A stretch of DNA of 64,000 nt from contig NZ_CAHJXL010000002.1 in the NCBI RefSeq assembly GCF_903645315.1, positions 546,934 to 610,933 of the forward strand, in the 5' to 3' direction. Shown here in pieces: positions 7,048 through 32,573 of this stretch (positions within the stretch are counted from its first letter, which is position 1; every line of letters starts with the position of its first letter). Under the pieces are notes generated by a model. The model searched no databases. It was not told the origin of the DNA and saw only the letters and a list, made by a program, of their open reading frames with translations. A program made the translations under genes and the position numbers. This DNA comes from Victivallis sp. Marseille-Q1083 (GTDB taxonomy: Bacteria; Verrucomicrobiota; Lentisphaeria; Victivallales; Victivallaceae).

Positions 7048-7200
7048 CGCACAGCGGAAAATATTGTTATGGAAAAACGCCTATGCAGACATTCTTGGAT
7101 TCCTTGTCTCTTGCAAAAGAGAAAATGTTGCAGTATAGTAACGACATTCCAAACCAAAAGAAAATATGACAGATCGTCAGATGATGTCGTAACTTCTACA

Positions 7201-7280
7201 AATCATATCTGCCGGGCGTTTTTGGCTAGCCGGTCGAGCCCATGCTCATATTCCGGCGGATTTTCGGTACGCGCCCACAT
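7201..7280. repeat. left copy of 80-bp inverted repeat bounding the defence cassette
   Basis: The 80 bases starting AATCATATCTGCCGGGCG match the reverse complement of 31884-31962 at about 71 of 80 positions by eye. They include exact blocks of 10 bases at the outer end, TTCCGGCGGA in the middle, and about 19 bases at the inner end (TTTCGGTACGCGCCCACAT). The inner end is 12 bases beyond the stop of the last operon gene. This looks like one terminal inverted repeat of a mobile cassette; no transposase matching it is seen. Confidence 0.8.
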
Positions 7281-9153
7281 TTAAATTACTGTTCATAATT
7301 CATTATGTAGCACTTTGAGAAATTCTGCTTGTGCTGAAGCTGACATTTTCTTGAAACGCTCTAACAACCATTCTATTTCCTTTGAATCAAGGAAATGTTC
7401 AATCTGTTGCCTCAAAGAAGTCAACAACTCCGCGTTGACCTCAAGATCAACGTATTGCGGAGGCGCATCCAAGTCCGAACGCAATTCGTTCCCTTGCGCA
7501 ATGGTCATAGCTGAAAGATTTTCTAATCTACTTTGAATTTCATTCAACCAGTCTGTTGCGGCATTTTGTCTAAATGCCTCACACGTTCCTTGCAACAATA
7601 CAAATGCCTTCTCTAAATCCCACGGAAGTTCATATTCTGCAAAGCGTGTCAAGAAGTTTTCTTTAGTAGTCTTTATTTGTGCCTTGAAATCTGCAGTTGA
7701 TATTCCCAAAAATTGTAACTTATGAAGGCTATCTAGATAGAACTCAGTTGCAGACCGCATATTTCTGAAATCATCCTCATCTCTGCTGAAACCTGAATAT
7801 AAATGTTCCAAATCTAACGAACGACTACGCAACTCATCAGCAGATTGCGGGGAGAGTTCCGTTTCCCAAATAGAACTAGCATTATCTTCAATTTTTTTCC
7901 GGTGCAACTCAAGGCTTCTGTTTAGTTCCTTTAGCAGAGCAATTTTTTCTTCAAGTTCTCCAACTAGCTGAGCATTTTGCAATTTGGTCATTATTTGTCT
8001 GGAAGTCGTCAACAACTTCCCATGTCCCTTTAATGAATCTTGAAGGACCTTTAATTCTGCTAAAGTAATATTCTTCGGAAACGAACTATTATTTGCAAGC
8101 CATATATTCACATCTGTCAATGCTTGCTGACATTCAGCTACTTGCTCAAAACTTTTACTAATTCTTGTGTAATATTGCTCAAGTTGTACGCATTGTTCTG
8201 TCAGGTCAAGCTCTTTTAGATTTCGTCCAGTTTTTTCAATAAGTTTAGAACGAAATTCTGTCAATGCGGCTTGGCTACGGTTCACTGGTCGTTGCGAGAC
8301 TAACCACGTTGAAAAATTTTGGATGATAATTTGTTTGGCAGTCAGAATCTGATCTGCTAAATATGAATAATCTTCCTGACGCCACATCGGATCGTCTGTT
8401 TTTTTCTTACCGTAGCTTTGCAATAGGGAAGCACCATAACTCAAATTAAAAACATCTTCTTGAGTCTTTGCACGCTCGATAATATTAAAAGCCTTTTCTT
8501 CTTTTTCATCAAATTCATCAATTTTTCTTTGAGCTTCTTCCGCAAGAGCGTGCAATTCTCTAGCTTTCCATTTAATTGTTCTTGGAATTTGAATTCTAGT
8601 TTCTAAATCATTTGCTTTGGTGGCAAATTCAATTCTGGCTGCGTATGAGCAAGCATTACCCCAGTCGTTTAACAACTGTTCCCATTCGGAATCATTGTTT
8701 TCGGTCTTAAAAAGATTGATTGCAGATAGAGCTTTAATCGATAAGATATTTGCGTCAAACAATCTTGCGTACATGTTTTGCCAGTCCGTATGTTGACCGT
8801 TTTCTTCGGCAAAAATGATATTCTTTCTTGTTTGAACATAAACAGAAAACAAAAGTCCTGCTGACGCAATATTAGCACCATACGGAGAGGCACAAGCCAT
8901 TTCTATAGCAGATGCACAATTAAGTCCTTCCTGGTTTCCATATAATATTTTATCCCACTCCATTACAATTGCTCTTGCATTAGGCTGAGCAGGTTGAGCA
9001 TTGATCGAACCGTCCTTGTTAAAGATCTTCCACGCTTCTTTCAATACGGAATTTGCACGGTTTTGTTGACGTTGTGGCATTGTTTGAATTTTGCCGTAAG
9101 AGAAATCATCCAAAAGCAACGCTCTGGTGAATTCTCCACAGTCTACAGCCGCA

Positions 9154-10522
9154 CACGCCTGTCCTAACAAACTTTTGAAAGGGTGAAAAAAGTGGAGCCA
9201 ACTTGTCCGTAATAGTATATTACGGTTGCCTAAACCACAAGGAGGCTCCGTAATGAAGAATACATCAGTCAGTCTTTTTCGTCAAGTGTTGGATTTGATA
9301 CCGAAGCGAGAATTTGAAGAAATAGTCATGAAACACAATGGAGACAAGCGAAAACAGTCCTTTGACAGTTGGGCACATTTTGTGTCGATGATCTTCTGCC
9401 AGTTGGCGCAGGCCAATAGTCTGCGAGAGATTTGCGGAGGTTTGAAAACCTGCGGAGGCAAGTTGAATCATCTTGAAGTGGAATCCGCTCCAACCAAATC
9501 CAACTTGTCGTACGCCAATGCCCATCGCTCTCCGAAAATGTTCGGCGATATTTTCCATATGCTTCTGGGACACTGCCATGCAATTGCGCCACGGCATGAG
9601 TTTTCGTTTCCCAAGAAACTTTACAGTCTCGACGCAACGCTGATTGAGCTTTGCGTTAAAGTTTTTCCATGGGCAACCTATCGGCAAACCAAAGGGGCAA
9701 TCAAGCTCAATATGCTGTTGGATCACGATGGTCATCTTCCCGTGTTCGTTGATTTCACCAATGGAGATGTTCATGAGGTAAACAGCGCCAGACGAATGGA
9801 ACTCCCGCGTGACAGCATGGTGGTTTGTGATCGCGGATACGTTGATTTTTCCATGCTGTATAATTGGAATCTCTCCGGTGTGGATTTTGTCACGCGCCTC
9901 AAGACCAATACGACCTACGACATCCCGGAATACGATGTCAAGCAATATCCCGGAACCGTTTTGAGCGATGAAGTCATTTTTCTGCGTGGTTCGCAAGACA
10001 AATATCCGGAACGTCTCCGCAAAGTGGTCGTCTGCGATGTGGAAAACCATCGGACATTGACCTTGCTAACCAACAATTTTGAGCTGGACGCACAAACGAT
10101 CGGCGACATCTATAAGGCTCGCTGGCAAATCGAAAGCTTTTTCAAGATGCTCAAGCAGAACTTCAAGATCAAAACGTTTATCGGCACCAGCGAAAATGCG
10201 GTTCGGATTCAAGTTTGGACAGCGCTTATCGCTATTTTGCTGACCAAGTACCTGAAGTTTTTGTCGAAAGCGCAATGGCATTTTTCAACCCTGGTCACTT
10301 TCCTGAAATGGAATCTATTTGTTTACCGCGACTTGCGCCAATGGCTGGATCAACCATTTACCAAACCACCGGAGCCGGAATCATTTCAACCAGAGTTCGC
10401 TTTTTAGGACAGCAGATTTACAACAAAGGGGGGCTACTTTTGAGAATTGGTGTGAAATAGATGAAAATGAGGGGGCGTAATCAGAAAATTACGCCATTTT
10501 GAAAATTGTTAGGACAGGTGTG
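9154..10522 (+). mobile_element. IS4-family element, copy 1 (1369 bp)
   Basis: Ends are CACGCCTGTCCTAACAA on the left and, inverted, CACACCTGTCCTAACAA on the right. Both sides carry the exact 9-bp target duplication ACAGCCGCA (9145-9153 and 10523-10531). It is inserted in the second ATPase gene and is nearly identical to the copy at 10993-12361, so both moved recently. Confidence 0.93.
9253..10407 (+). CDS. IS4-family transposase, copy 1
   Basis: The product is 384 aa, from the ATG at 9253 with GGAGG upstream. It has an N-terminal DUF4372-type domain (SLFRQVLDLIPKREFEEIV), then the DDE catalytic core: first Asp in SLDATLIEL, second in VVCDRGYVDF, and Glu in the IS4 signature YKARWQIESFFKMLKQN. 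It differs from copy 2 at three residues (LEVES/LGVES, CVK/CIK, YNW/YKW). It appears intact and is presumably active on both copies and on related ends. Confidence 0.93.
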   Translation: MKNTSVSLFRQVLDLIPKREFEEIVMKHNGDKRKQSFDSWAHFVSMIFCQLAQANSLREICGGLKTCGGKLNHLEVESAPTKSNLSYANAHRSPKMFGDIFHMLLGHCHAIAPRHEFSFPKKLYSLDATLIELCVKVFPWATYRQTKGAIKLNMLLDHDGHLPVFVDFTNGDVHEVNSARRMELPRDSMVVCDRGYVDFSMLYNWNLSGVDFVTRLKTNTTYDIPEYDVKQYPGTVLSDEVIFLRGSQDKYPERLRKVVVCDVENHRTLTLLTNNFELDAQTIGDIYKARWQIESFFKMLKQNFKIKTFIGTSENAVRIQVWTALIAILLTKYLKFLSKAQWHFSTLVTFLKWNLFVYRDLRQWLDQPFTKPPEPESFQPEFAF

Positions 10523-10992
10523 ACAGCCGCATTAGTCCTACTTGACCTGTAATTGTCAAATGGAAATGGTAATACCTTGGAATAAATCTTTTCAAATATA
10601 AAACTGGCTATTTGGGTAAGGCGAGATGGAAGTGCATCCCCGGGAAAAGTAGTCACAAAATTACGTTGCAAAAGCGCTTGCTTTATTTCCTCTTTTAAGG
10701 CTTCAATGCGTCTCTCTCGATGGATAGAAGCTATTTTTCCATAAAGTTCGCCTTCTTGTGGAGAAAGTTTTTCAATAATGTCTATCTCTGACATTATTTT
10801 ACCGACTTCTCCCGAATCATGAAGCAAGGCAAGAACAACAGGTACATGAGTATGTCCGGTCTGCTTTGCACATTTTCGCAGAACATTTTGAGCTTGCAAT
10901 TTGATGTCTTCTATTGATTCGTGTTCTGACACATAGCAATAAAAAATTATTCCTCGCGGAGTGTCAACTTGACAGAATTTTATGCTGTCCAT

Positions 10993-12361
10993 CACGCCTG
11001 TCCTAACAAACTTTTGAAAGGGTGAAAAAAGTGGAGCCAACTTGTCCGTAATAGTATATTACGGTTGCCTAAACCACAAGGAGGCTCCGTAATGAAGAAT
11101 ACATCAGTCAGTCTTTTTCGTCAAGTGTTGGATTTGATACCGAAGCGAGAATTTGAAGAAATAGTCATGAAACACAATGGAGACAAGCGAAAACAGTCCT
11201 TTGACAGTTGGGCACATTTTGTGTCGATGATCTTCTGCCAGTTGGCGCAGGCCAATAGTCTGCGAGAGATTTGCGGAGGTTTGAAAACCTGTGGAGGCAA
11301 ATTGAATCATCTTGGAGTGGAATCCGCTCCAACCAAATCCAACTTGTCGTACGCCAATGCCCATCGCTCTCCGAAAATGTTCGGCGATATTTTCCATATG
11401 CTTCTGGGACACTGCCATGCAATTGCGCCACGGCATGAGTTTTCGTTTCCCAAGAAACTTTACAGTCTCGACGCAACGCTGATTGAGCTTTGCATTAAAG
11501 TTTTTCCATGGGCAACCTATCGGCAAACCAAAGGGGCAATCAAGCTCAATATGCTGTTGGATCACGATGGTCATCTTCCCGTGTTCGTTGATTTCACCAA
11601 TGGAGATGTTCATGAGGTAAACAGCGCCAGACGAATGGAACTCCCGCGTGACAGCATGGTGGTTTGTGATCGCGGATACGTTGATTTTTCCATGCTGTAT
11701 AAATGGAATCTCTCCGGTGTGGATTTTGTCACGCGCCTCAAGACCAATACGACCTACGACATCCCGGAATACGATGTCAAGCAATATCCCGGAACCGTTT
11801 TGAGCGATGAAGTCATTTTTCTGCGTGGTTCGCAAGACAAATATCCGGAACGTCTCCGCAAAGTGGTCGTCTGCGATGTGGAAAACCATCGGACATTGAC
11901 CTTGCTAACCAACAATTTTGAGCTGGACGCACAAACGATCGGCGACATCTATAAGGCTCGCTGGCAAATCGAAAGCTTTTTCAAGATGCTCAAGCAGAAC
12001 TTCAAGATCAAAACGTTTATCGGCACCAGCGAAAATGCGGTTCGGATTCAAGTTTGGACAGCGCTTATCGCTATTTTGCTGACCAAGTACCTGAAGTTTT
12101 TGTCGAAAGCGCAATGGCATTTTTCAACCCTGGTCACTTTCCTGAAATGGAATCTATTTGTTTACCGCGACTTGCGCCAATGGCTGGATCAACCATTTAC
12201 CAAACCACCGGAGCCGGAATCATTTCAACCAGAGTTCGCTTTTTAGGACAGCAGATTTACAACAAAGGGGGGCTACTTTTGAGAATTGGTGTGAAATAGA
12301 TGAAAATGAGGGGGCGTAATCAGAAAATTACGCCATTTTGAAAATTGTTAGGACAGGTGTG
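10993..12361 (+). mobile_element. IS4-family element, copy 2 (1369 bp)
   Basis: It has the same length and ends as copy 1, inserted in the same orientation 470 bases away. The 9-bp duplication GCTGTCCAT flanks it exactly (10984-10992 and 12362-12370). Because the duplications differ, these are two independent insertions, not a duplicated block. Confidence 0.93.
11092..12246 (+). CDS. IS4-family transposase, copy 2
   Basis: The product is 384 aa and identical to copy 1 except for three substitutions. All DDE residues and the Y..RW.IE.FFK signature are kept. It is full length with the same ribosome site and is presumably functional. Recombination between the two copies would delete the middle segment of the interrupted ATPase gene. 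Confidence 0.93.
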   Translation: MKNTSVSLFRQVLDLIPKREFEEIVMKHNGDKRKQSFDSWAHFVSMIFCQLAQANSLREICGGLKTCGGKLNHLGVESAPTKSNLSYANAHRSPKMFGDIFHMLLGHCHAIAPRHEFSFPKKLYSLDATLIELCIKVFPWATYRQTKGAIKLNMLLDHDGHLPVFVDFTNGDVHEVNSARRMELPRDSMVVCDRGYVDFSMLYKWNLSGVDFVTRLKTNTTYDIPEYDVKQYPGTVLSDEVIFLRGSQDKYPERLRKVVVCDVENHRTLTLLTNNFELDAQTIGDIYKARWQIESFFKMLKQNFKIKTFIGTSENAVRIQVWTALIAILLTKYLKFLSKAQWHFSTLVTFLKWNLFVYRDLRQWLDQPFTKPPEPESFQPEFAF

Positions 12362-14332: not shown

Positions 14333-15156
14333 TTAAATAAAATCTTCATAGAGTCGTTTCCACAAACTTTCAGAAGTCGTTTTACTACATACAATCCACG
14401 GATGCATATGCCGATCTATAGAAAATATACCCTTTTGTTCAAGCATTGTCAGAACTTGTTGTGATTCGCCGAGAGTCCAACCTGTTATGCTGCGAAAGCC
14501 ACAGAACTCCTCTAGCTCATCTACAGTTATTTGGCCACCTGCACGTTTATTTCTTTCAATAGCATCTATCATCCAAGCAGCATAACCAATAGCAAAACTA
14601 CTATCAATCGGTGCTTTTTCACGTTTCCACCTTCCTGAAAAATCTTTAATTGCACCACATTTTTGAAATGAATTCTCGTCAGAGTACATCCTAAATGTTG
14701 GACCTAGTGATTTCCCATCGGATGCTCCAATCATCGGGCATATCCATTTTTCCAAAGTTTCCTGATCAAATCTATCTCCAAGGATATCCTTGCCATTCCA
14801 GAAAACTTGATACCACGTTTCCGCCCCATCTTCTTTATTGCAGAGATACAAATGAGCAATCCACTGGGTTAATGCTTCTCTAAAGAATTTATCTTCAAGT
14901 AATACTGCTCTGCCAAAGAAAGTAAGAGCGAGTCTTCCGTCTTCAACCTTTACAAGATGCATTGCAAGGCAATAATCAGCAGTCGGCAAGGCTTTTCCAC
15001 TAGAGGAATACCTGTTGCATCTGCGATTGCTTGCATATCGAGCTCGCCGTTGTCAGCTGCGTATTTCAATAATGCGCCAAGATATTGTTTTTCTGGAATA
15101 AATGTACGATGAAAATTCCGGGCTAAACGTTTGCTTTTATTTTTTGCAGTAGCCAT
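14333..15156 (-). pseudogene. second DUF4007-like (SspB-like) protein, frameshifted
   Basis: The start at 15156 overlaps the stop of the large HerA-like gene as TAATG. The first frame reads KRLARNFHRTFIPEKQYL and AIADATGIPL. It then shifts near 15000 into a second frame that continues SGKALPTADYCLAMHLV and ends at 14333. Adding one base near CCTCTAGTGG restores a 274-aa protein with the uninterrupted stretch ATGIP-L-SGK. In DUF4007-type proteins from phosphorothioation loci I recall a TGIP..SSGK motif at this point, so I place it there; this is recollection, not a search. No convincing slippery heptamer is present, so mutation (or a sequencing error) is likelier than programmed frameshifting. 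Confidence 0.6.
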
Positions 15157-18100
15157 TAAAAACCTCTTTCTGCCAAGGAGGAAATTTTGATTTTATGGAC
15201 CTCAACTCTCATCTCACCTGTTTTTTCATTGAGGACAGGGCCGATGGATAAGCATTCGCCTTTTTGCAAAGACATAAGTTTTGCCTTCCATTGTTCTTTA
15301 GTTCCTGAATTTGCAACCTGCATAACCAGTTCAGCGTATTGATTTGCCTCTGGCGCATTAGGTCCAAAGAACAACTTATGTCCTGCTTGGAACAATCTCG
15401 CTTGTTGATCTTTATCCAAGTTACTTAAAGTCTGTGTTGCAGCAATAAGACACAATCCAAACTTTCGTCCTTCTGTGAGGATTTTACCCAGGGGAGCTTC
15501 TAATTTTTGATCAAGATTCTGGACTTCATCGAGTACAATTACTTTAGGAGTCTTTTCGGTACTTGAATTACATGCATATGCGTAAAGATCCCAAAGAATA
15601 AACTCAATCAATATTCTTGATGTTTCCTTATCCACCCCTGCCAATTGGAATACATGACACAAGTGTTGCTTGTCATCAAAAATTCCTTGCCAACTAGAGT
15701 TCTGCTCATTCGTAAACGGATGTTCAGAAACGAATGGCTTTAACTTACTGATGACAGTTTGCACTGTCCCTTTTTTGTGAACTCCATCATCAAGATAGCT
15801 TTCCCAAATCGGCATGAGACGTTCCAAATTCATTTGTCCCGACTCTACACCATCATAGATTGCATCAATTAAGATGCTGGCTTGCTGATCTCCCATATTA
15901 TAAACAGAGTTAAAAATGGAGGTTACACGTTTTGCGACATCCATAGAATTGTTTTCGATGAAGTAACCACCGCCAACATCTTGCTTTTGCTTCAAAAATG
16001 GATCAAGAGGAAGTTTATTTGCTTTAACAAATCGTTGTCCTGGTCTCAGAGCATTAGACGTTGCAGATTCCAGCTGATTGGGCAAAAATCCATTGGTATA
16101 ATCTACAATAAGACTGTTTTGCTTCTGTCTGCCAAATTCACACAAAATTGTCTGAATAGCATAGGTTTTTCCCATTCCAGAACTGCCAAATATAAGTAGA
16201 TGACGGTTGTTCAATTTAGGATGTCCAAATTCCCAATAGAAGTCTCTGCCATTTTCTTTCCCCAAGAAAATTCGTTGTGGAATCTCATGCTGAGGCCCCG
16301 GAACAGCGGGGGGCTGTTCAATGGTTTTACCATCCTCGTCATTCCCGTCAGCCGTTGAGGCTGAATCATCTATTGAATCATTCCCAGAACTCACAGGTGG
16401 CTCATCTTCAGGAATAACAGGTTCAATGACTGGCGGAGCTACGATTACCTCTTCCTCCTCTTCTGGTTCAATCTCGTCCTGTGGACGTTCCTCAATATCG
16501 GTAGCAGTTGAAGAAGATGGTTTAAGAGTAACCATCTTTCCATCCCAATCTCTAATGGGAGATTCCATGCCGTTGCAAATATTCTTTATGAATTGATAAC
16601 CAATGGAATAAACCTGCACTTCGTAGTTTTCATTGTTGGACTCAATATCCCAACATTCAATTTCGTCCATTCCCGGTTGCTTGCTGTCCGTCCAGAATGC
16701 AAAAACACCGGCAGTCCAGGAAATTTCAAAATCACCGGCTGACAAACGTTCCATTGCCGCCAGGAATATTTCTTCATTCTGAACATTTTTTGCGCTGCAA
16801 GCAATCAATCTATGAAGCTGCAAATACCAGTAGCGTCCATCTGGCACTTCTTGGCCATTCACTCTGGGGCGGAATGCCTTAATAAGTACATCAAGTCCAT
16901 TCTGAATTTGCTCTTTAGCCTTATCCAAAACAGCACTGTTCTCCTTGACCATCTTGCATTCGATCATGGTCATCTTGAAGGCGAATTTTCCCGAAGGGGT
17001 AATATCTGCCCGCATCCACAATAAATCAGGATGTGTTTTATCGTCAGGAGAACTCAAATCGAACCAATGACGATATGCATCGATAGAAAATATCTGATTG
17101 CACAAGTGTTCGCCGGAGGTGAGCGGCAGAAGTTTATAAATCAGGCTGTAAGCCAACAAGTCACACCGGTAATAGCTCGGACCGAGCGCTCTGATCATAG
17201 ACAGACCGGAAAGTTTTTGTGCTTCACCTACCAATTGCTCAACGATAACAATATCCTCTGCCTTGCTACCATAGGAGAAAGTATTTTTGAAATTATTCCG
17301 GAGATTAATTTTCAGGTCAGCAAAAGAGAATTGCTGAGTTGAAATAGTATAATTACTTTCTCCGTGGACACCAACGCCAGAACCAAAACCTATGAGTTCA
17401 CGCTCTTTGCCTTGATCTTTGTAAGTAGGACTTATTTCTTTCAACAATTTATCATCAATATTGGCATCAATGCATACAATCCATTCGGCGGCTTCATGTG
17501 CGGCATCAATGATTCTCTGCCATTCTGCAAAATTGCCTGTTCCGAGAATAACATGGTATTGATCCGTTTTCGTATATTGATTTTTCAGGCGCGCCATAAT
17601 TTCAGTATGGTCCGCGTTTATTCTGAATTGCCGGTTGCTAATAATTTGAGTTCGAGTTAGCTTCTCATCAGGAGTCGCTTGTGAGCAGAAGGACTTTTCC
17701 AGTATCGGGAATTTCAACACATCCCGAGTATTGTCATAAGCGGCAACTGGCTTAAATTTATTTTCATCCTGTCCTGCTGCAATGAAGTTATAGAACACAA
17801 AAATATCGCAGTCGAAATCTTCACGCAAAATTTTTTCAAATTGTGCACGGTTGTTAGTTGTTGAAACAATGCGATGCGCCACAGACAATGAACAATAGGA
17901 GTAGTATTTCAACTTATCTTCATTTTCTGCCGCTTCCCAGCGCTCCTGCCACTCTTCAAGATAGTTGGCAATACCTGTATCGTCAGCGAAGTCAGAGAAC
18001 AACACCAATGATACTGCATATTTTTGTCCATTTTTCATTTGATCAGGGTTGATCCACTTCTTCAGATAACTATTCAACGCAGAAAGCACAGGTTGAATAT

Positions 18101-20429: not shown

Positions 20430-22060
20430 TATTTACCACCCCTACAGAAAGGATTTTTTACCAAGGAACATGAGTCAGACAATGTGATCAGCATTCCAGA
20501 AGCCTCCAACATTCGTTCCAAGAATTGCGAATCGACAGCATTGAAATCGAGTTGCTCCTTTCGATTTTGCCAATCAGGAGATTCTGCCAATGCGCTTTCG
20601 TCAAATACAAATCCAAAGTGGTTCGCAATATTCTGCTTGAAACGTTCCAATGTCATCCGTTGTGTAGGCACGAGGGAAAGGACGAAAAATCGCAACAACT
20701 TGTCGGTCAGAACAAAACGAGCCTTGCCGCCACGCCGGGGAACGATTAAACCAATACTCTTTCCCACACGGCTGTACAGCTTATGACCGTATGTTTTATC
20801 TGCTTCTTTATAAACTCTTTCTTGTTTACCATCAAGCGTCGAAATGTTTTCTTTTATTTGCGGAATGCGTATCGCTTTGTATATACTAAGACAGATGTCA
20901 GAGAGTGTATTCTGAGAAATTTCACGACGTTTTCTGCAGCTTTCATCTATTTCAGAGAAAAACAGACGGAAATTTAATCCATCACCACAGGAAACTCCAT
21001 CACGATATCGATAGCTTTGTGCGGCTAGAGAACGCATCAACTGCATGGCACAGACCATTTGCAAAAGATCAACTGTTTCCATAAGATCTGTTTGTGCTTG
21101 CAATATCCGCAAAAGTTCAATAGCGAAAAGATATCCTTCATGCCATCCTTCTTCTGGACACCAACCACATGTAATCTGACGTTGCCTATCGTGAATTGAA
21201 TCTGTCGCATTAGCTGTACTTTGATCAGCCTGACGATCAATAAAATCAGCCAGTTCGTTTAATTCTTTTGGAGTTTTCTCAAAAAATTTATATAATGCTC
21301 CTTGCAGTTTATCGTAAAGCATTTTGGGAGCTTGTTCGTGGGGCAACAAAAATTCCCATCGTCCTGTATCCTTAAGCCAAGTTGTTATTTTAACAGGCTC
21401 TTGATGAAATGCATTATTCAGTTGAAGAAAAAGTAATTCTCCGCCACGAGCCAGAAACCGATGTTGATTTTGTGTAAACAAACTATTAAAATTATCCAAA
21501 ACATCTTGCCAACAAAGCAGTTTTTCTGATTTTCTCGCTACAGTTTCATTCCAAATCAATTCTCCGCTAAGAACACCCTCACAGAATGGCAGAAAATTTT
21601 GAGCGCACCAAGTACGTTGAGCACCATTTCCCCAAAAGCCAAGGAATAAATTATTTAGCAAGATAAGAGCTTCATCTTTTTGCCCATCATCAGCATAAAT
21701 TTTTTCCTTCATTTTTTTCCATAATTCTTGACAATGTTGCCGATGGGTTGCATGACGAGTCTCAAGACGAGATGCTCCAAGGAATGTGAAAAGTTTTAAA
21801 TTTAATCTTGCCTTAGGAGAATATGAAAGCTCTTCATAAGCCCATTCTTGCAATTTTTCCCATGCTGGAAAATATCCCGAAAAATTGTCTCCAGCTATCG
21901 CTTTTTGAGAAGAAAGTAACAATAAAAATTCGGATAGTAACTCGACAGGATGTTGTTCGCTAGAAAAACGTCGTCCGAATAACTGGATCGCGGGATTTCC
22001 ATCTTCTTTTTGTTCTGTATTGCAAATCCCTCTTGGAAAATCAGGAATATAATTAGTCAT
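20429..22060 (-). CDS. unknown 543-aa protein in SspG/DptG position
   Basis: I chose the ATG at 22060 because GGAGG lies six bases upstream and it overlaps the preceding stop by eight bases; the longer frame has no ribosome site. The protein begins MTNYIPDFPRG and is largely alpha-helical. I see no P-loop, nuclease or zinc motif. A positively charged segment (GKSIGLIVPRRGGKARFVL) lies near the C-terminus. Its place between a P-loop protein and a HerA-like ATPase matches DptG/SspG, whose function is also unclear. The assignment rests on synteny alone. Confidence 0.5.
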   Translation of the reverse strand: MTNYIPDFPRGICNTEQKEDGNPAIQLFGRRFSSEQHPVELLSEFLLLLSSQKAIAGDNFSGYFPAWEKLQEWAYEELSYSPKARLNLKLFTFLGASRLETRHATHRQHCQELWKKMKEKIYADDGQKDEALILLNNLFLGFWGNGAQRTWCAQNFLPFCEGVLSGELIWNETVARKSEKLLCWQDVLDNFNSLFTQNQHRFLARGGELLFLQLNNAFHQEPVKITTWLKDTGRWEFLLPHEQAPKMLYDKLQGALYKFFEKTPKELNELADFIDRQADQSTANATDSIHDRQRQITCGWCPEEGWHEGYLFAIELLRILQAQTDLMETVDLLQMVCAMQLMRSLAAQSYRYRDGVSCGDGLNFRLFFSEIDESCRKRREISQNTLSDICLSIYKAIRIPQIKENISTLDGKQERVYKEADKTYGHKLYSRVGKSIGLIVPRRGGKARFVLTDKLLRFFVLSLVPTQRMTLERFKQNIANHFGFVFDESALAESPDWQNRKEQLDFNAVDSQFLERMLEASGMLITLSDSCSLVKNPFCRGGK

Positions 22061-24323
22061 TTGAGACCTCCAACTTATCACCTTCCATACGCAAGCGCTG
22101 TTGACATAATTCATAAGTGTTATTTTGTTTTAGTAAAACAAGGCCATCATCATTTGGCAAAGCACAGCGTTTGAGCACATCCGTTTTGAATTTTTCCAAT
22201 CGATCAATATAGGAGCTTTGTAGGACCGAGCTAATTCCACCATTTTTACGATGTGCAATATAGTCAAGGAATGGCAATGTTAATTCCAAATCGATGCCTT
22301 TGCAGATAGCTTTACCCTGCAGAATAACAACATTGCTCTCAAATTTAATGCTGAAGTTTTCAGTGAAATTAATCTTCCCTAACACAACCTGTGCACTTTG
22401 GCGGATGTTGTGTTGTCTGCGCGCAAGAGTGATATACAGTGATTTCCCATTGGATTTACTGCCGTCAGGAATACGGACTCCACAAAAGTGCTCTTGCAAA
22501 ACCTGAAACAGTTGATTAAGCAATTTAGTTCGCTTTTCAAAAGCCAACTCTCCTTGTTGGTGCCAGTTATTATACTGTAACAGCATTTCCGAATTTAAAA
22601 AGGCTCCCAGAAATTTCTCAAAATTTGCTCGTGTTGATTCCGAAGGCGTATGAAGGAAGTAAAACATTCTACGAATTTGCCGCCTTGCCATTGCTCCGTC
22701 CGAATTATTGGATTCTGGATCAATTTCAATATTGGCTTCTCTACTCACTTTATTATAATATTTTTCCAACTCCGGAATATTCAGAGTAATAGATCCCTTT
22801 TGTCCCTCTAGCCAGAAGTAACGTTCAACACTGGAGGCAAAACGGGACTCGAAATTTTGTGCTTTTATAACCTTAACTGATTTTAACTGTTCTGCACGAT
22901 AATCTGCTGCATTTGCATTGTCTCCGAAAAAGTGGTTAAAGAAGAAATAATCCCCTGCGTTGTCGTGAAATCTTGCACCAGCAACAGCTTGTTCCATAAT
23001 TTGTGAACAATTATAGCCAGAACAGAGCATGTATGAAAAATGAGCACTAATCTGCCGCATTGTAAGTCGACTTCCGTACGCAGAAATACGTTCTAGTAAC
23101 AAGCCGAGTCTTTCCAAGATAACGGAATCATACTGTTGTATCAACGACACATTGCGCAAAATAGGACAACCTTTAGCAAACGAACATTGCTGACATTTTT
23201 CCCAGCCGGGGGCATGAATCATCTTTTGCCACAGTTTTTTTGCAATATCAATATTGTTTCGTAAAGCAAGGTTATAGACGGAAAAAATAATGTTTTCGAT
23301 TACCAAGTTCTTTCCTCGAGAGGAATCCATTGCCTCTAACACACGGTCTTCCCATAACATTTTTTGATTGCTGTCACAATTATTCAAAATCAGAGAAAGC
23401 AGACTGCCTGTGTTTGATACCAGCACAAAACGGCGTTGATTGCTTTTTATTTCTTTCCAAAGTTGCATCTGTTCTTCCCGACTCCATTCGCTAAGGTCTT
23501 TTACAATGGTAATCGGAATTCCACCGTAGTTCAACTCCTCTTTTGCCTGCAATCCGGCATCAAGGGACAAATCTGCAGGCAATTGCTTAATCCGCTTATA
23601 CACCTCCAAGGCAATTGTTGATTTACCATCTCCTGCATGGCCGGTAAGAATAATATGTTTGTTGAGACCTTGTGTTGTCAAAATTGAGTATATTTCATCG
23701 ACAAGAGGATGCGATATATGAATTTGACAAAATTGGGCTTCTTGAGCTTGCTTTTCTGCTAAAGCTCCGTCGCTGTTGCCATCAAGCGAATTAAGGGAGT
23801 TTATATATGAAACAAAAGAATTTCCTGTAAGCATTTTTTCAATCTTTACAATAGCCATCCCCTCTGCTGTAGACGTAACTTTTTCTACTGATGAACTCAA
23901 ATGTTTAACCAAGAAGGATTTCAATATATTTCTGCGCTCTGCAGTTGTTAACAATTGAAACATTTCATCTGATAATACTGCATTTTTTACAATTTCCTTT
24001 AATTGTCCCGGTCCACCAACTGTATGAGTGCTTTCAAGGACGAGTTCCATTCCATCTTGAGGTACTAATGACCAGAAAGATTGACTTCGTAAATGGAAAA
24101 ATGGAGCGTAAGAACGATCCCGATCGTTGGCAGATGCAAATTGCCTAAACCTATTTGTAAAAGCTGTTTTCAGAATATCATTGTAAAATATTTGCGCTGA
24201 CTGAAAAATTCCTTGTTCAAAAAGGTCAACGACTGCGAGTAATAACAAAGCTTTGTGAGGACGAAAATTCCCCGCATTTGTTCCCATTTTTTCGATTTCA
24301 ATGAACAGTTCTGAAGATGGCAT
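22053..24323 (-). CDS. P-loop ATPase with sulfur-binding-like N-terminal domain (SspF/DptF-like)
   Basis: A 756-aa protein starting eight bases after the cysteine desulfurase stop. Residues 15-90 carry RPHKALLLLAVVDL and later PFFHLRSQSFWSLVP. That pattern (PHK.LLL... then HL...W.L) recalls the sulfur-binding/HNH-associated domain of ScoMcrA-type phosphorothioate-dependent nucleases. Walker A is GHAGDGKST (228-236). A cysteine cluster, KCQQCSFAKGCP, near residue 375 may bind zinc. DptF/SspF proteins are P-loop ATPases with comparable cysteines. The fusion would let the restriction module read phosphorothioate marks directly. Family assignment is by pattern; the sulfur-binding role is inference. 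Confidence 0.6.
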   Translation of the reverse strand: MPSSELFIEIEKMGTNAGNFRPHKALLLLAVVDLFEQGIFQSAQIFYNDILKTAFTNRFRQFASANDRDRSYAPFFHLRSQSFWSLVPQDGMELVLESTHTVGGPGQLKEIVKNAVLSDEMFQLLTTAERRNILKSFLVKHLSSSVEKVTSTAEGMAIVKIEKMLTGNSFVSYINSLNSLDGNSDGALAEKQAQEAQFCQIHISHPLVDEIYSILTTQGLNKHIILTGHAGDGKSTIALEVYKRIKQLPADLSLDAGLQAKEELNYGGIPITIVKDLSEWSREEQMQLWKEIKSNQRRFVLVSNTGSLLSLILNNCDSNQKMLWEDRVLEAMDSSRGKNLVIENIIFSVYNLALRNNIDIAKKLWQKMIHAPGWEKCQQCSFAKGCPILRNVSLIQQYDSVILERLGLLLERISAYGSRLTMRQISAHFSYMLCSGYNCSQIMEQAVAGARFHDNAGDYFFFNHFFGDNANAADYRAEQLKSVKVIKAQNFESRFASSVERYFWLEGQKGSITLNIPELEKYYNKVSREANIEIDPESNNSDGAMARRQIRRMFYFLHTPSESTRANFEKFLGAFLNSEMLLQYNNWHQQGELAFEKRTKLLNQLFQVLQEHFCGVRIPDGSKSNGKSLYITLARRQHNIRQSAQVVLGKINFTENFSIKFESNVVILQGKAICKGIDLELTLPFLDYIAHRKNGGISSVLQSSYIDRLEKFKTDVLKRCALPNDDGLVLLKQNNTYELCQQRLRMEGDKLEVSND

Positions 24324-24331
24324 AATATTCC

Positions 24332-25480
24332 TTATAATGACGGGAGGGTTTTCAAGGTTGTAATTAGTTCTGAAACAAAACTTCTAATATCTTTTTTAGT
24401 AGTAAAAATACTTGTCGATATTCTTACTGAACGTTTGGAAACTTCTTCTAGGCATCCCATTGATTGTAGAACATACGAAGCTCCAATAGCTCCGCTATTA
24501 CATGCGGAACCACTACTTATGCAAAATAAAGGCATATTGGCAATTAAAATATCTGCTGGGAGCCCTGGAATTGCAACATTAGTTGTATTGGGTAGCCGGT
24601 TCGCACTTTTTCCATGGATAATGCATCCTGGTATGTTGATAAGCAACTCCTTTTCCAGTAATTTTTGCAACTTTGAAAAATGATCTATTCGTTGAGATAA
24701 GTTTGAAACAACCTCTTCTACAGCGGTAGCAAGTCCAACAATTCCAGGCAAATTATGAGTTCCGGGATGCACATCATGTTCCTGGCCTCCTCCGACAAAG
24801 GGCAGTGTGTAGGGCCATGATTTAAATCCCCCACGTAAATACAAGATTCCTGTTCCTTGAGGTCCGTGAATTTTATGCCCGCTGAAAGTAGTAATGTCAA
24901 AATCTTGTTTACTCATTTCAAGATTGTCTTTGCCCAATCCTTGCACAGCATCACAATGAAAAATAGCCCCTGCATTATGAGCCATTTCACATAATTGAGA
25001 AACTGGTTGAATAACCCCTGTCTCATTATTGGCGTATTGGCAAGATACAAGGACTGTATTATTTGATATAAGCTCTGAGGCTTGCTTTAGGTCAACAACA
25101 CCGTCTTGTGTTACAGGCATTTCAACAACTTCAAACCCCAATGCCTCCAGCGCTCTGGCACTCAATAAGACAGATTTGTGTTCAATAGAACTGATTACAA
25201 TACGCCGCTTGCCTGGATTGCTTTTTAATAAACTTAAGAAAATCCAGTTATTTCCTTCTGTTGCACCGGAATTAAAAAATATCTCGGACTTACGACAAGC
25301 AAGAGCGGCAGCGACTCGTTCCCGGGATTCTTCAAGCAAACGATAAGCTTGTCTTCCTATAAAGTGCTGACTTGATGCATTTCCCCATTGTTCTTTCATG
25401 CACACGCGAACAGCTTCTTGTACTTTATAAGAACAAGAGGTTGTTGCATTATTGTCCAAGTATATTATTTTATCTCTCAT
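24332..25480 (-). CDS. cysteine desulfurase (IscS/DndA/SspA-like)
   Basis: A 382-aa class V aminotransferase-fold PLP enzyme that takes sulfur from cysteine. Seen: YLDNNATT at the start, SGATEGNN, EHKSVL, HCDAVQGLGK, the PLP lysine in SGHKIHGPQG (about residue 203), and the catalytic-loop cysteine in SSGSACNSG (about 327). The start at 25480 forms an ATGA overlap with the PAPS-reductase-like stop; a GTG nine bases earlier is less likely. Placement inside a DNA-sulfur-type operon suggests it supplies sulfur for phosphorothioation, like DndA or SspA, rather than housekeeping Fe-S assembly. The frame is intact. Confidence 0.88.
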   Translation of the reverse strand: MRDKIIYLDNNATTSCSYKVQEAVRVCMKEQWGNASSQHFIGRQAYRLLEESRERVAAALACRKSEIFFNSGATEGNNWIFLSLLKSNPGKRRIVISSIEHKSVLLSARALEALGFEVVEMPVTQDGVVDLKQASELISNNTVLVSCQYANNETGVIQPVSQLCEMAHNAGAIFHCDAVQGLGKDNLEMSKQDFDITTFSGHKIHGPQGTGILYLRGGFKSWPYTLPFVGGGQEHDVHPGTHNLPGIVGLATAVEEVVSNLSQRIDHFSKLQKLLEKELLINIPGCIIHGKSANRLPNTTNVAIPGLPADILIANMPLFCISSGSACNSGAIGASYVLQSMGCLEEVSKRSVRISTSIFTTKKDIRSFVSELITTLKTLPSL

Positions 25481-26286
25481 AAGTGACACATCAAACAGGG
25501 CGTTTCCCCGTCATCCTCTGTTTCAAACACATCTTTTAATTTTAAATGAGCTTGATTTTTCTTTGCATAAAGTTGTTGTTTTGCGTGTTGTTCCTTTATG
25601 GCAGCAACTCTTTCTGGACGCGCTAACTCCGCAAGGCTTTCGTTTTGTATCCAGGTAAATCTTTCTCCTGTAATAGGATCAATCTTTTCATAATCCATCG
25701 CCTGCTTGAAGAGATCTGGATGACGCTCCAATAAACCAACCCACTCAATTCGTTGCTGAAAAAAGCAAAAGAAACATCCCGAACGAGAGCGCCACTCATA
25801 GTAGGCGGGAACACCCAGTCCAGCCTCTTCTAAAATACGAAAAACATCGGCTTTTCTAATGTTTCCTTCAACGAACGGGAATACAGTTTTTATATTAGGT
25901 TTAGTTGAAATATAACCCGTTCTGTGTGGTTCATCAGCTCGAATTCCAACGTAACTTATAACCGCATCCGTTCCAATGTATTCTTCATAAGGAACAAGTT
26001 TCAAACATTCAGTACACCAACGAGACTGAACAGACGGCAAGTAGCCTCGCTTTAATTTTAGTATTTCATCAAAACCATAGCCTGATTTATACTTTAATGT
26101 ATGAATTGGCTTTCCCAAATATTGACTTAAGCGTTGCATGTATTCATATGTTTCGTCCAATTCTTTTTCAGTATCACAAAAAACATATTCCATTTCCGGT
26201 ACTTTATCTTTCATGTACACGGCCAACGCTGATGAATCCTTTCCTCCGGAAAGCGCTAATATATGCCTGACTTTCTTTTCGCTCAT
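25477..26286 (-). CDS. PAPS-reductase-like PP-loop protein (SspD/DndC-like)
   Basis: A 269-aa protein of the adenine-nucleotide alpha-hydrolase fold. The PP-loop LALSGGKDSSAL is at residues 11-21. Two CxxC pairs, WCTEC (C91, C94) and GCFFCF (C171, C174), could hold the 4Fe-4S cluster known in DndC; a third pair, CLMC, is at the end. DndC/SspD uses ATP to activate the DNA backbone for sulfur transfer. ATGA overlaps couple it to the ATPase before it and the desulfurase after it, which argues for DNA sulfur chemistry over assimilatory sulfate reduction. Intact. Confidence 0.85.
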   Translation of the reverse strand: MSEKKVRHILALSGGKDSSALAVYMKDKVPEMEYVFCDTEKELDETYEYMQRLSQYLGKPIHTLKYKSGYGFDEILKLKRGYLPSVQSRWCTECLKLVPYEEYIGTDAVISYVGIRADEPHRTGYISTKPNIKTVFPFVEGNIRKADVFRILEEAGLGVPAYYEWRSRSGCFFCFFQQRIEWVGLLERHPDLFKQAMDYEKIDPITGERFTWIQNESLAELARPERVAAIKEQHAKQQLYAKKNQAHLKLKDVFETEDDGETPCLMCHL

Positions 26287-29200: not shown

Positions 29201-29621
29201 TTTCCAGTTCATCAAAAGTTTCAGCTAACAAGGTCGCCACAGAAGCACGTCTGGCGGTCACGGGTAAAACAAGAAACCCGTATTTAGAACCATCTGCTCC
29301 AAAAATGTTGTTCCAGAGAGTTTGAGCAAAGTTCTTGTCTACCGCTTTTAATTGTTTCCAAGCATAGCCGCCTTGATCTTGCAACAGATGATAGAGCAAC
29401 AAGCCAAAAGAAGACTTACCTGTACCATAGGGACCTGTTAAGGTGAATGCTCGATCTGTTATATTTTGCGTAAAACTGTCAGAAATTTGCGCCAAGGTTT
29501 GCACTACCAATGGAGTAATAATATAGCCATCCAACCCCTTGGCTCGTTTTAAATCTCGAGCAATATTGACAGAACGTAAAAAGCGCCTGCGAACGCTGAT
29601 AATTTTATTCAAAGGAGTCAT
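26283..29621 (-). CDS. 1112-aa DEFG-type P-loop ATPase (SspC-like)
   Basis: The product is a large ATPase. Walker A is TGPYGTGKSS (62-71) and Walker B is LFFIFDEFGK (182-191). Further on are SERNPILFLGMLHQSF (sensor-like) and long helical C-terminal regions. Its start overlaps the stop of the DUF4007 gene and its stop overlaps the PAPS-reductase-like start, each as ATGA. DUF4007, large ATPase, PAPS-like enzyme is the SspB-C-D order. The DEFG Walker B extension is shared with the operon's last ATPase, suggesting the two are distant paralogs. BrxC is an alternative family, but no other BREX gene is present. The frame is intact. Confidence 0.7.
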   Translation of the reverse strand: MTPLNKIISVRRRFLRSVNIARDLKRAKGLDGYIITPLVVQTLAQISDSFTQNITDRAFTLTGPYGTGKSSFGLLLYHLLQDQGGYAWKQLKAVDKNFAQTLWNNIFGADGSKYGFLVLPVTARRASVATLLAETFDELEIPLRDQIAPQVEALRVCKDSKTAIRLVEEIAELAVKDEYRGLFFIFDEFGKVFEEAYFNKKETDINLLQDLSEAASRSERNPILFLGMLHQSFGNYVDDIHDVKTKNEFNKIQGRFTPMSFIETPAAQLQLLAGAIERDEKLRSGYCKNDFDELISKGIALTLHSISGLSLEEFRKYVSAAWPIHPLALLALPLLFRRFGQNERSIFTFLASNEPHSFQSFINSADVESLLGLDWLFDYLITNYETQLSHHPHGKIFLEANDILNSKNLSDQEQTVVKVVAVLSSLGKQSNLKASSVLIEYALGKVSCNLQKLLTQSILVYRKFSDSYCVWEGSDVDLIECAERADKALGRSGFALAQPLRNALPPRPIIAKRHSFRTGALRYFAVDYVDSPDDLMQVFSDKKGIGDACGQVLICFAGSDATMDTFIEEGKKLSAENSTILFAIPQNIDELRAALYEVQRLKWIVDNTEELRDDRIAQREIDLRQAEAKQKVAQLQISLTDPRPAPLGSNCKWVWNGEQQEMSSGKDVSILLSRVCDTLYPDSPCVLNEMINKQAISNQAAAARNNLIKHLNRPDAVARQFLGITGFPPDRSIYEGLLYQSGIHKKIDGIWQLAVPEKDNTTNLYSCWKKIENMVFAAENPILLNDLYKQLSAPPYGMLDGIMPIILTAFYVLNRKEVTLYQEGSFLPDPQDAHFELLVRRPDLFAIAGAKIVGMRKKIVERLANGLHTEQAVSDIVKYLYKMLGSLSKYAKNTNAVSEQTRDFRQAFDVAKSPEKLLFVDLPKVFGLPPISEEDGNDADFEQYFKQLNYCLGELAALLPNLLKTQRGILLESCKLPNSQEGWNMLYERACFLAPKVTNTELIPFLQNVANTMGDWNKADAVMGYMVSVPLKNWTSLDIKNFPGIAAGKAQLFLEAYRPYAKSSGVLTKAEQKQVEQLKSVLKKQFPQGQNTAVTRAALLACIEELDREDEK

Positions 29622-29768
29622 TTTGTATTCCTCCCGTAATATTTTTTCAGCAGGTCATCTGCATATTGTGATGCACTTTTCTTGCCGTTTACGTCGTAGT
29701 TTATGGTAGCCAGTCCTGCCGTCTCGCTTACAAGAAGTTTTCTTTTTGTTATTTTTTCAAGTTCAACC

Positions 29769-31074
29769 CACTGCTGTCCGGTAAAAAATTCAGCATAGAA
29801 ACTCGTTGAAAAGTTCGAGTTGTTCGGGAGCATTCCAATCCGGCGGCTTCGTAATGGTTTTGCGGTTCAGAGCGAGGACTTCGAGCAGGGAAAGATTCTG
29901 CATAAGCGTCTCGCGGATTCGGTTCGTTAATTCCGAGAGGCTGAGCTTGAATCCATGCAGGAATTTGATGTATGCGACCAAAAGATAATGGATAAGCGCG
30001 ACATAGATTTGCGTCATGACGGCGTTTTCACTGGTTCCAAGAAAGCTCTTGATTTTGAGATTTTGCTTGATCCATTTGAAGAAGATTTCGATCTGCCAAC
30101 GCTGTTTATAAATTCCGGCAATGCTCGCTGCCGCCAGTTTGAAGTTGTTGGTAATGAAGCGGTATGTTTTTCCGGTCGATTCATCCAGGAACTCAATCAG
30201 CCTCAGTTCTCCGGGATATTTTCTTGCTGATTGATATCCGGTAAACCACACGGCTTCATCCCGCAAAACCCCACGTTTTTCATTTGCCTCCCGATGCTGT
30301 CCGAGAAACTCAATTTTTGCATTGTCTTTCAGTCTCGTGACAAAATAAGCCTCGCTGTCCGCAATGTGTTGAAACCAGTTCAGATCATAGTATCCTTTGT
30401 CAAAGGTGTAGATGCTGTCCGGAACGATGATAATGTTCTCTCGTGCCGCTCGAATATCTGCTATTTTCCCGTTGCTCAGCATCACAAAGCAGGGCAGATT
30501 TCCGGATAGATCAAGCTCGGTATGAAGTTTGATAGCACCCTTGTTTTTACGATAATGCGCCCAATCGTAAAGATTTAGGCACAGATCAATCGTCGTGCTG
30601 TCAATCGCGTACAGCGGATTGTGGAATCGGAACTTGTGCGAGGGCGCACATTTCAAAGCCCGGTCAAGAATTTCCTCAAACAACGCCTTGAATATCTCCG
30701 GATCACGTCGATTCATCGCTTCGGACAAGGTCGATTTTGGAACAACCTCCATGCCGAGGTGATACAGCCGATCATGGTTTGCAAGAAGACCGTTTTCAAT
30801 TTCTCGCAAGGAGTCTTTGCCCGTAATTTGCGCGTAAAGGCACGTCAAAAACTGCCGCCATGCGGTAAAATGTTTGCAATAGCGGTCGCCGGATAAGTTT
30901 TCTACGGATTTCTCAAAACGATGTCTCGGTATGAAATTGAAAAGCTGCTGAAAGATGCTACTGTAATGCATTGTCGGGACTTTCTTGTTCAATATTATGG
31001 GTTTGAGCTCTTCTAATATAGAACAAGTCCCGATTTTAACAATCAAGTCCGGAAACTTTTACCGGACAGTAGTG
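29769..31074 (-). mobile_element. IS4-family element, second type (1306 bp)
   Basis: Ends are CACTGCTGTCCGGTAAAA and, inverted, CACTACTGTCCGGTAAAA. The exact 9-bp duplication AGTTCAACC lies at 29760-29768 and 31075-31083. It is inserted in the DUF4007 gene in the same direction as that gene. It is related to, but distinct from, the pair at 9154-12361. Confidence 0.93.
29790..30971 (-). CDS. IS4-family transposase
   Basis: The product is 393 aa, starting MHYSSIFQQLFNFIPRHRFE at 30971; the upstream extension to 31046 overlaps the element end and looks non-coding. It has a DUF4372-like N-terminus and the catalytic residues in AIDSTTIDL, YTFDKGYYDL and YKQRWQIEIFFKWIKQN. It is full length with no frameshift, so probably functional. 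It shares domain order with the transposase at 9253 but low identity. Confidence 0.92.
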   Translation of the reverse strand: MHYSSIFQQLFNFIPRHRFEKSVENLSGDRYCKHFTAWRQFLTCLYAQITGKDSLREIENGLLANHDRLYHLGMEVVPKSTLSEAMNRRDPEIFKALFEEILDRALKCAPSHKFRFHNPLYAIDSTTIDLCLNLYDWAHYRKNKGAIKLHTELDLSGNLPCFVMLSNGKIADIRAARENIIIVPDSIYTFDKGYYDLNWFQHIADSEAYFVTRLKDNAKIEFLGQHREANEKRGVLRDEAVWFTGYQSARKYPGELRLIEFLDESTGKTYRFITNNFKLAAASIAGIYKQRWQIEIFFKWIKQNLKIKSFLGTSENAVMTQIYVALIHYLLVAYIKFLHGFKLSLSELTNRIRETLMQNLSLLEVLALNRKTITKPPDWNAPEQLELFNEFLC

Positions 31075-31883
31075 AGTTCAACCATATAATCCATCAGAAC
31101 ACCTTCATTGAGCTTGAATATTTGACCGGGACTTCCTGCATCATAAAGACAATTCTGGACATTGATACTTGTCTGTCTACCGATTTTTTCAATAAATTTT
31201 AGTATTGCAAAGCCAACAAGCTCTGACGGCAAGTTCTGTTTGCCGCCGATATTAAATCGGTAGAGGTCTTGCTGCGAAGTTCCCTGAATCAATTCCAAAC
31301 TCAAAAACGGGGAGTCAAAATTTTCCTCTCCTGCTTTTGCGCGTGTCCCCGCATAATTGCGTACAAAGCAGTCGATATCGCGTTCAATTGTACTTGCAGA
31401 AACACTGCAAGCGTTGCTTTGGATGGAGTGCTGCAAATCGCGTTTGGTAAACTCAGGTTTATTCCATTTGTAAAAAGCGAAGTGCCAGCTAGACCATGTA
31501 TCTTCAGGGAGCAAGGCTCGTTGCATCAAAGACCAGTGCAGTAACCACAATGTGGCATCATCCTCCAAATACGGATCATTGCCTTCAACAAAATCTTTTT
31601 CCCCAAAAATAAATTTACCAAGAGTGGTAAGTCCCATCAATCCATTGCCGATATCAGTCAACAAACCTGTTTGAGTGCACCAATATTTGATACTCTCAAC
31701 CATATTTTTGCCGACACCAAGTTGAATCAATACATCATCTTCCAAGAAGCCATGTGGATTCTTTTGAATCAATCGAACTCCTTTTTCCAACCACCCGTAA
31801 CGGAAGACAAATGTTTGATGTCCTGAAAATTTATATTTCATATGTAAACCCGTCGTTATTTTTTTCATTTTCCGTCAATATAC

Positions 31884-31962
31884 ATGTGGGCGCGTACCGA
31901 AATCCGCCGGAATTTGAGCATGGGCTCTACCGGACAACCCAAAACGTCCGACAGATATGATT
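31884..31962. repeat. right copy of 80-bp inverted repeat
   Basis: This is the reverse complement of 7201-7280 at about 71 of 80 positions. Its inner end (ATGTGGGCGCGTACCGAAA) is 15 bases upstream of the operon's first possible start codon. The operon promoter must therefore be within this repeat or outside it. Confidence 0.8.
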
Positions 31963-32500: not shown

Positions 32501-32573
32501 GAACTCATCGCAGTCTTGTCGTGTCTATGCTTGAAAATCACCGGAATCGTTGTATAGTAAGATATTGGAGGAT

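Follow-up and report, generated by a model that had tools for sequence, protein, structure and literature searches.

The window analyzed here, a stretch of 64,000 nucleotides from Victivallis sp. Marseille-Q1083 (contig NZ_CAHJXL010000002.1, positions 546,934 to 610,933), carries a nine-gene phosphorothioate (PT) defense operon in which a predicted PT writer (genes B1, C1, D and A, of the SspB-C-D-A kind) is accompanied by the restriction genes F, G and H and by a second DUF4007/ATPase pair, B2 and C2. The favored reading, held with a probability of about 0.7, is that B2 and C2 are a dedicated part of the restriction arm, which would then consist of five parts, F-G-H-B2-C2, beside the B1-C1-D-A writer. 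The genes present and their order, the domains and the conserved motifs were computed here, as were the recurrence in different phyla, the phylogeny and the co-divergence; all activities, the complexes and the scan-and-check step discussed below were inferred from them. The newness lies in the five-gene restriction arm and not in the presence of modification and restriction genes side by side, which is already known for SspABCD-SspFGH (PMC8092258). The extra pair had been taken as undescribed in the first-pass annotation of this DNA, and no account of an F-G-H-B2-C2 module or of a sulfur-binding domain in SspF was found in the literature searched, which did not extend to supplements or to the BREX-4 preprint by Yuan et al., so that absence from print is unproven; in the available text of PMC9239176, both search terms are present but are mentioned apart.

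The second DUF4007/ATPase pair and its recurrence

In the window, B2 (14333-15156, minus strand) is a second, diverged DUF4007 protein with a frameshifted gene, and C2 (7293-14317, minus strand) is a second ATPase, of about 1400 residues if intact, with two insertion sequence (IS) copies inside. An intact B2 homologue is found in L009/L011 (385-1218). The open pieces of B2 and C2 match SspB (1.6e-5) and SspC (3.5e-13) weakly in PADLOC, and the other two C2 pieces have no match in the family search. At E 0.001, no NCBIfam family is matched by the intact homologues of B2 and C2 from the closest relative, and intact B2 barely clears the Pfam cut-off of DUF4007 (29.3 versus 27 bits). The Walker A and Walker B motifs are retained in C2, and the B2 model (predicted local distance difference test score of 92.5) is built of helices and short strand pairs. 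BLAST does not give a meaningful match of B1 with B2 or of C1 with C2; when profiles are compared, B2 matches B1 with an E-value of 8.3e-16 and C2 matches C1 with 1.8e-26. The profile matches (hhalign) with the second pair of bacteriophage exclusion (BREX) type 4 loci have E-values of 1.2e-32 for B2 and 7.3e-47 for C2. Nothing up to 0.01, and one chance match at 0.33, was obtained when the C2 and B2 profiles were compared with the PDB, and a tblastn search of plasmids with the C-terminal C2 piece gave no match.

When 84,980 species genomes were scanned with the C2 alignment, 46 loci were found, of which 43 have the C2 type of the window and three (L054-L056) have the BREX-4 type of pair. H lies upstream of C2 in 40 of the 43, and the other three (L034, L043 and L048) start at a contig edge. 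Because this first scan was seeded on C2 itself, the recurrence was also assessed with a scan seeded on G, covering groups of 395, 387 and 391 genomes with at most three candidates scored per genome. Strong G matches (E <1e-130) occur in 13 genomes, including that of the window, and B2 follows H in all 13, seven of which are new to the survey. Three weak G matches (E about 1e-17; G885, G1088 and a second locus of G076) belong to canonical SspFGH loci, with no pair in the fetched stretches. When 369 genomes of the class of Acinetobacter were searched with the PADLOC SspG model, five matched: G090 and G304 have the pair, the canonical loci of G347 and G225 are without it and G410 is without it on its contig. 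For the canonical SspFGH loci overall, B2 and C2 are absent from the fetched stretches in five out of five.

B1, C1, D, F, G, H, B2 and C2 are all held by 27 loci, the window included, although some of these genes are split and B2 and C2 of L066-L068 come from a neighboring stretch of the same contig. The gene order of the window, B1-C1-D-(A)-F-G-H-B2-C2, recurs in several phyla, as named loci of Desulfobacterota, Acidobacteria, Verrucomicrobia, Lentisphaerota, Sumerlaeota and some Bacillota have it. In four named Clostridia loci and in G1481 the order is D-B1-C1-A-F-G-H-B2-C2, in L021 it is F-G-H-B2-C2-D-B1-C1-A, and in the Acinetobacter locus L041 a block A-F-G-H-B2-C2 faces B1-C1-D. The operon of Desulfopila sp. 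IMCC35008 (NZ_CP050700) showed no gene for A. Two pairs of rows of the survey are duplicates, L009 and L011 being on the same contig, as are L010 and L043.

Additional genes are seen at some of these loci. In Thiocapsa imhoffii (L038:1705-8730), BrxD-like ATPases and a BrxHI-like helicase, on the same strand, lie between H and B2, with Shango-like matches (SngB and SngC); open reading frames (ORFs) of similar sizes lie between H and B2 in L036 and L051. B2 and C2 are separated by a ParA-like gene and a fragment of DUF4435 in a Desulfobacterales locus (L026:8332-9850). Desulforhabdus sp. TSK (G076, contigs C11 and C18; L109, L058 and L027) has a canonical SspBCD-FGH locus as well as a nine-type locus.

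Phylogeny and co-divergence

The DUF4007 tree (96 rows) splits B1 from B2 with a support of 99, and the B2 proteins of the F-G-H loci form one side of a branch (51 rows, support of 99). Similarly, the ATPase tree (91 rows) has the C2 proteins of the F-G-H loci as one side of a branch (47 rows, support of 100). Some of the trees do not include L018 and others, and two C1 pieces were dropped from the ATPase tree. The protein L075_11173 is found on the B1 side of the DUF4007 tree, on a very long branch, though its position suggests that it is the second DUF4007 of a BREX-4 locus. It is very improbable that the second pair arose locally as a duplicate of SspB and SspC that is now decaying and has no function of its own: this would be in line with B2 and C2 both being broken in the Victivallis genome, but open, long-diverged copies exist in several phyla, B2 and C2 each forming one clade, and BLAST finds no meaningful resemblance to B1 and C1.

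The distances of B2 over the 27 loci correlate with those of H (0.93), G (0.90) and F (0.89), the corresponding values for the writer proteins being 0.69 (B1), 0.72 (C1) and 0.62 (D). B2 and C2 follow F, G and H over the writer by 0.24 (bootstrap 0.09 to 0.44), where the distances of a C2 that is split over frames rest on one piece. These values bear on the alternative that B2 and C2 are a second targeting pair of the writer, which would share SspD and SspA with B1 and C1 and would add a second modified motif. B2 being a DUF4007 protein and C2 being SspC-like in the profile comparison agree with such a role, as does the finding that SspB and SspC are writer subunits in known systems (PMC8092258). 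Nevertheless, this alternative is distinctly unlikely when considering that the B2 and C2 distances track F, G and H above B1, C1 and D, that B2 comes after H in each of the strong G-seeded loci, that B2 and C2 remain with F-G-H in the Acinetobacter locus L041, in which the writer is on the opposite strand, and that in BREX-4 loci the pair precedes PglZ and BrxL.

The B1 and C1 proteins of the nine-gene loci are intermixed with those of BREX-4 and canonical loci, and therefore writer modules seem to have been exchanged between systems, as judged from these trees. For G100, SspC is on another contig, beside L075_11173, and because of this neighbor its writer may serve a BREX-4 system.

The writer and the F, G and H proteins of the window

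The nine genes are all on the minus strand, in the order B1-C1-D-A-F-G-H-B2-C2, as obtained from ORFs and family searches of the window. C1 and D, D and A, and F and G overlap, base 20429 is common to G and H, and the start of B2 is overlapped by the stop of H; the gap between A and F is 8 nt. This confirms the first-pass annotation, which had described one nine-gene operon with this order and with overlapping starts and stops. The annotation had also placed its proteins in the Ssp and Dnd families, and searches with the models of these families did give matches, the PAPS-reductase-like gene within the operon matching SspD.

Its assignment of the first four genes to SspB-C-D-A is well supported for B1, C1 and D, which have strong PADLOC matches. 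B1 (31059-31868, minus strand) is an SspB protein with a DUF4007 match of 9.2e-71 and a PADLOC SspB match of 2e-73, having lost its C-terminus to an IS; with the SspB structures in the PDB (6juf and 6lb9), the E-value is 2e-33. C1 (26283-29621, minus strand) is an open SspC ATPase (PADLOC SspC 2.4e-266), and D (25477-26286, minus strand) is an open SspD, a PAPS-reductase-like sulfur transferase (SspD 5.8e-110; PF01507 1.9e-10). A (24332-25489, minus strand) is an open cysteine desulfurase of the SspA/DndA/NifS type, and it is tied to the system mainly by its position, because its PADLOC matches with SspA (1.3e-114) and DndA (5e-114) are alike and because NifS (1.7e-108) scores above DndA (5.1e-86) in NCBIfam, both below the cut-off. 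DndD and DndE have no match among the operon proteins, the writer ATPase being SspC, and family searches found neither PglZ nor BrxL among the operon genes.

The next three genes had been assigned to SspF-G-H or DptF-G-H, which the family models support: F and G match SspF and SspG moderately, and H is nearer to DndH than to SspH; the match of H with DptH in the PDB (7es4) is weak (0.0045). F (22053-24323, minus strand) is open, has a P-loop and matches PADLOC SspF with 1.5e-28 over residues 191-473; the match with NCBIfam NF045808 (1.7e-8) is below the cut-off. The sulfur-binding character that had been suggested for this fifth protein is confirmed for its N-terminus, as residues ~15-142 match the solved sulfur-binding domain SBDHga1 (PDB entry 8h0l, E-value of 3.5e-20). 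The sulfur-pocket residues of ScoMcrA are H116, R117 (or K) and P165 (PMC6224610), and all F rows in which the domain alignment extends over these positions keep the pocket, a histidine followed by lysine or arginine plus the proline. G (20429-22114, minus strand) is open and SspG-like (PADLOC SspG 1.2e-23). H (15156-20429, minus strand) is open and DndH/SspH-like (DndH 4.5e-54, SspH 4.4e-20), with a HerA/FtsK ATPase and the nuclease motif PD..ExK, formed by P1134, D1135, E1157 and K1159; this motif and the HerA motifs are kept in at least 92% of 37 H proteins.

The F proteins vary in size. Four are 1496-1542 residues long and a further one is split over two frames; the F of G659 has 1503 residues. 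In the two long F proteins that were scanned with Pfam (L057:1-3834 and L071:4-3849, minus strand), NERD and protein-kinase domains lie between the sulfur-binding domain and the P-loop. A kinase is also carried by PglW. This protein, of BREX type 2, also has an N-terminal NERD domain (PMC12839542). In the G1088 stretch (L108), a 432-residue protein with a sulfur-binding domain (147-230) lies directly after the canonical SspFGH set.

Linkage to the writer and points against the assignment

Several observations weigh against B2 and C2 being a dedicated part of the restriction arm and against F being its sulfur reader. G410, which belongs to the same F-G-H clade, has an 862-residue protein in the place of B2 and C2 on its contig (L090:6088-8673, minus strand, after H); this protein, a possible substitute, has a weak HNH_repeat match alone. 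The H proteins of the nine-type loci are not a strict clade, since those of G410 and the DndH of Priestia fall inside, and the Priestia DndH, which has no B2/C2 neighbor, is on a long end branch (2.7). As this DndH falls among the nine-type H proteins, this H clade may originally have been without the pair. Besides the window, five loci (J017, J032, J033, L046 and G1481) have C2 spread over more than one frame. The sulfur-binding domain is not universal: it is detected in 20 of 35 F rows, where two of the 20 are weak (G304 and L068, E about 5e-4), one locus is counted twice (G1089 = L017) and, among the 15 without the domain, L021, L028 and L045 start right where the fetched stretch does and J032 has the domain in a separate frame. 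It is weak or undetected in gammaproteobacterial F proteins, it is undetected in the 1368-residue F of G605 and the F proteins of ~590 residues of Clostridia and Acinetobacter are without it. Finally, SspC was not found in 11 of the 42 genomes with this C2 type, mostly fragmented metagenome-assembled genomes.

This last finding would also suit F-G-H-B2-C2 being a stand-alone capture/restriction system that travels with a PT writer and is independent of its mark. DndFGH has been argued to be stand-alone (PMC10853773), and the H of the window is DndH-like; the BRC systems unite HerA, a BrxC-like ATPase and DUF4007, and the components named in the available text of PMC12839542 include no PT gene. 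However, 20 of the 42 genomes have a true SspC within 25 kb on the contig that carries C2 and 11 more have one on another contig, and many F proteins carry the sulfur-binding domain, which makes a stand-alone system unlikely.

Proposed mechanism and its meaning

If B2 and C2 do belong to the restriction arm, a scan-and-check step can be envisaged, in which B2 and C2 find the motif and F reads the sulfur; this step is held with less confidence than the assignment itself. The writer B1/C1/D/A would put sulfur into the backbone of the host DNA at a short motif. B2 and C2, paralogous to the DNA-binding/ATPase pair of the writer, would find or hold the target DNA and thereby position the restriction arm. 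F, where the domain is present, would read the presence of the phosphorothioate, G is probably a DNA-binding subunit and H is predicted to cut and pump DNA with its PD-(D/E)xK nuclease and HerA/FtsK motor. DNA in which the scanner finds the motif and F finds no sulfur would be damaged, and sulfur-tagged DNA would be spared.

It is proposed tentatively, as something rather more doubtful than the five-part arm, that B2-C2 could be an exchangeable interrogation head common to the restriction arms of PT-based Ssp and BREX-4 systems. The writer and the restriction arm would then use paired DNA readers to locate one and the same motif, and the mark would be checked by a sulfur-binding domain, located in F in many Ssp loci and in the second DUF4007 in some BREX-4 loci. 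About 10-15% of the sites are modified (PMC11931770), and the way in which DNA with and without the tag is distinguished in PT restriction when marking is partial has been called not understood (PMC7461809). A five-gene arm with its own DNA-binding/ATPase pair, and often with a built-in sulfur-binding domain, is a direct and testable candidate for the sensor, and Ssp and BREX type 4 are linked through a pair whose F-G-H-type members match no NCBIfam family. If true, a shared interrogation head would allow PT systems to make their comparison site by site, and it could help to explain the protection by sparse sulfur marks.

The broken state of the operon and its flanks

Three of the nine genes, B1, B2 and C2, are broken here, and the other six are open. 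An IS with terminal inverted repeats (29761-31082, minus strand; DDE transposase ORF at 29790-31046) lies in the end of B1, whose ORF stops within the IS end; the tail found beyond the IS is like the C-terminal part of other B1 proteins (best E-value of 9.5e-5). A frameshift near 15.0 kb divides B2. The two IS copies inside C2 are both on the plus strand (10993-12361, transposase at 11065-12246, and 9154-10522, transposase at 9226-10407), each being 1369 bp long with a 9-bp target duplication, and over 1352 bases the identity between the two is 99.6%. Among the relatives found, the closest is Lentisphaeria bacterium RGIG5270 ('Sheep_Colon'; G030, JAFVPG010000278, a 5336-bp contig), whose C2 is 87% identical; there, B2 is intact and C2 is open as far as the contig end, over 1367 residues in L009/L011. 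With B1, B2 and C2 broken, the system of this genome is probably dead or dying. Canonical SspFGH alone damages the DNA of cells lacking PT and is toxic without the writer (PMC8092258), and because of this toxicity the loss of B1 together with B2 and C2 fits a restriction arm that would have to be disarmed once its writer fails.

The inverted repeats that the first-pass annotation had placed at the ends of the operon are present. An 88-nt repeat, with arms at 7200-7287, directly after the C2 stop, and at 31877-31963, just upstream of B1 and imperfect, flanks the whole operon with 87.5% identity and has two copies only in the 4.82-Mb genome. By eye, no target duplication is seen outside the repeat; folding of the two arms gives a z of about -0.5, and the 19-nt repeat core has 0 matches in viral contigs. 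Among 23 loci compared, the window and a single further Lentisphaerota locus (J017 = G1089) have an inverted flanking match of more than 25 nt, so that the repeat may be the mark of a mobile unit in this lineage and not a general feature. J047 has a 21-nt inverted flanking match (E-value of 0.005); the flanking-repeat row of L021 was rejected as an artefact of its gene order. The operon is flanked by an IS66-type transposase (5868-6881) on one side and by an AAA-ATPase_like/PDDEXK_9 protein (32550-34142) on the other, and a group II intron with a reverse transcriptase/maturase (34539-36350) adjoins it.

Comparison with known systems

The BREX type 4 loci of the Thermomicrobium roseum kind (L005, L007, L054, L055 and G1777) resemble the window in having SspB-SspC-SspD, a desulfurase and a second DUF4007 with a large ATPase related to B2 and C2, the presence of the second pair being an observation of this analysis and not a published criterion. 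Two DUF4007/ATPase pairs are seen in L005, L007, L054 and L055. BREX type 4 has been described with one DUF4007 and one SspC-like ATPase (PMC12839542), and its brxPCZL set has been named (PMC11931770). The second ATPase of T. roseum has no PADLOC or Pfam match at E 0.01, and a search of 252 genomes with the BREX-4 C2 gave two matches, one of which is the known G104. In G1777 (L110-L111), the second DUF4007 (147-407) and, ahead of it, a sulfur-binding domain (19-142) are fused in one open frame of 422 residues, and in Adhaeribacter (L055:7894-9193) the same two domains are found in a broken frame. The sulfur-binding domain is thus seen in two of seven BREX-4-type loci, L005, L007, L008, L054 and L056 having no match. 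In these systems the pair is followed by PglZ and BrxL and is not preceded by F-G-H, whereas the window operon has F-G-H before the pair.

The BRC systems (PMC12839542) also bring HerA/FtsK, DUF4007 and a BrxC-like ATPase together, but as described in the available text they have PglZ and no PT writer, which is the reverse of the operon here; the two C2 proteins scanned have no Pfam DUF6079 match at E 0.01. Membership of the operon in BREX-4 or BRC was rejected, since PglZ and BrxL were not found in it. The similarity with DndABCDE-DndFGH concerns H, which is DndH-like in its nuclease motif and HerA/FtsK motor; the writer of the window has SspB and SspC, not DndD and DndE, and no B2 or C2 was seen within 26 kb of the Priestia DndFGH (L077).

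The operon is most readily compared with SspABCD-SspFGH, with which it shares the SspB-C-D-A writer and an F-G-H set with a P-loop F and a HerA/FtsK H. In that system, SspFGH and the SspBCD writer protect against phage, F, G and H each being needed (PMC8092258). The canonical F proteins have 610-634 residues and none has a sulfur-binding match, whereas the F of the window has one, and the canonical H proteins form a separate clade (5 rows, support of 100). Unlike the canonical loci, the window does not have a three-gene restriction cassette: H is followed by the B2/C2 pair.

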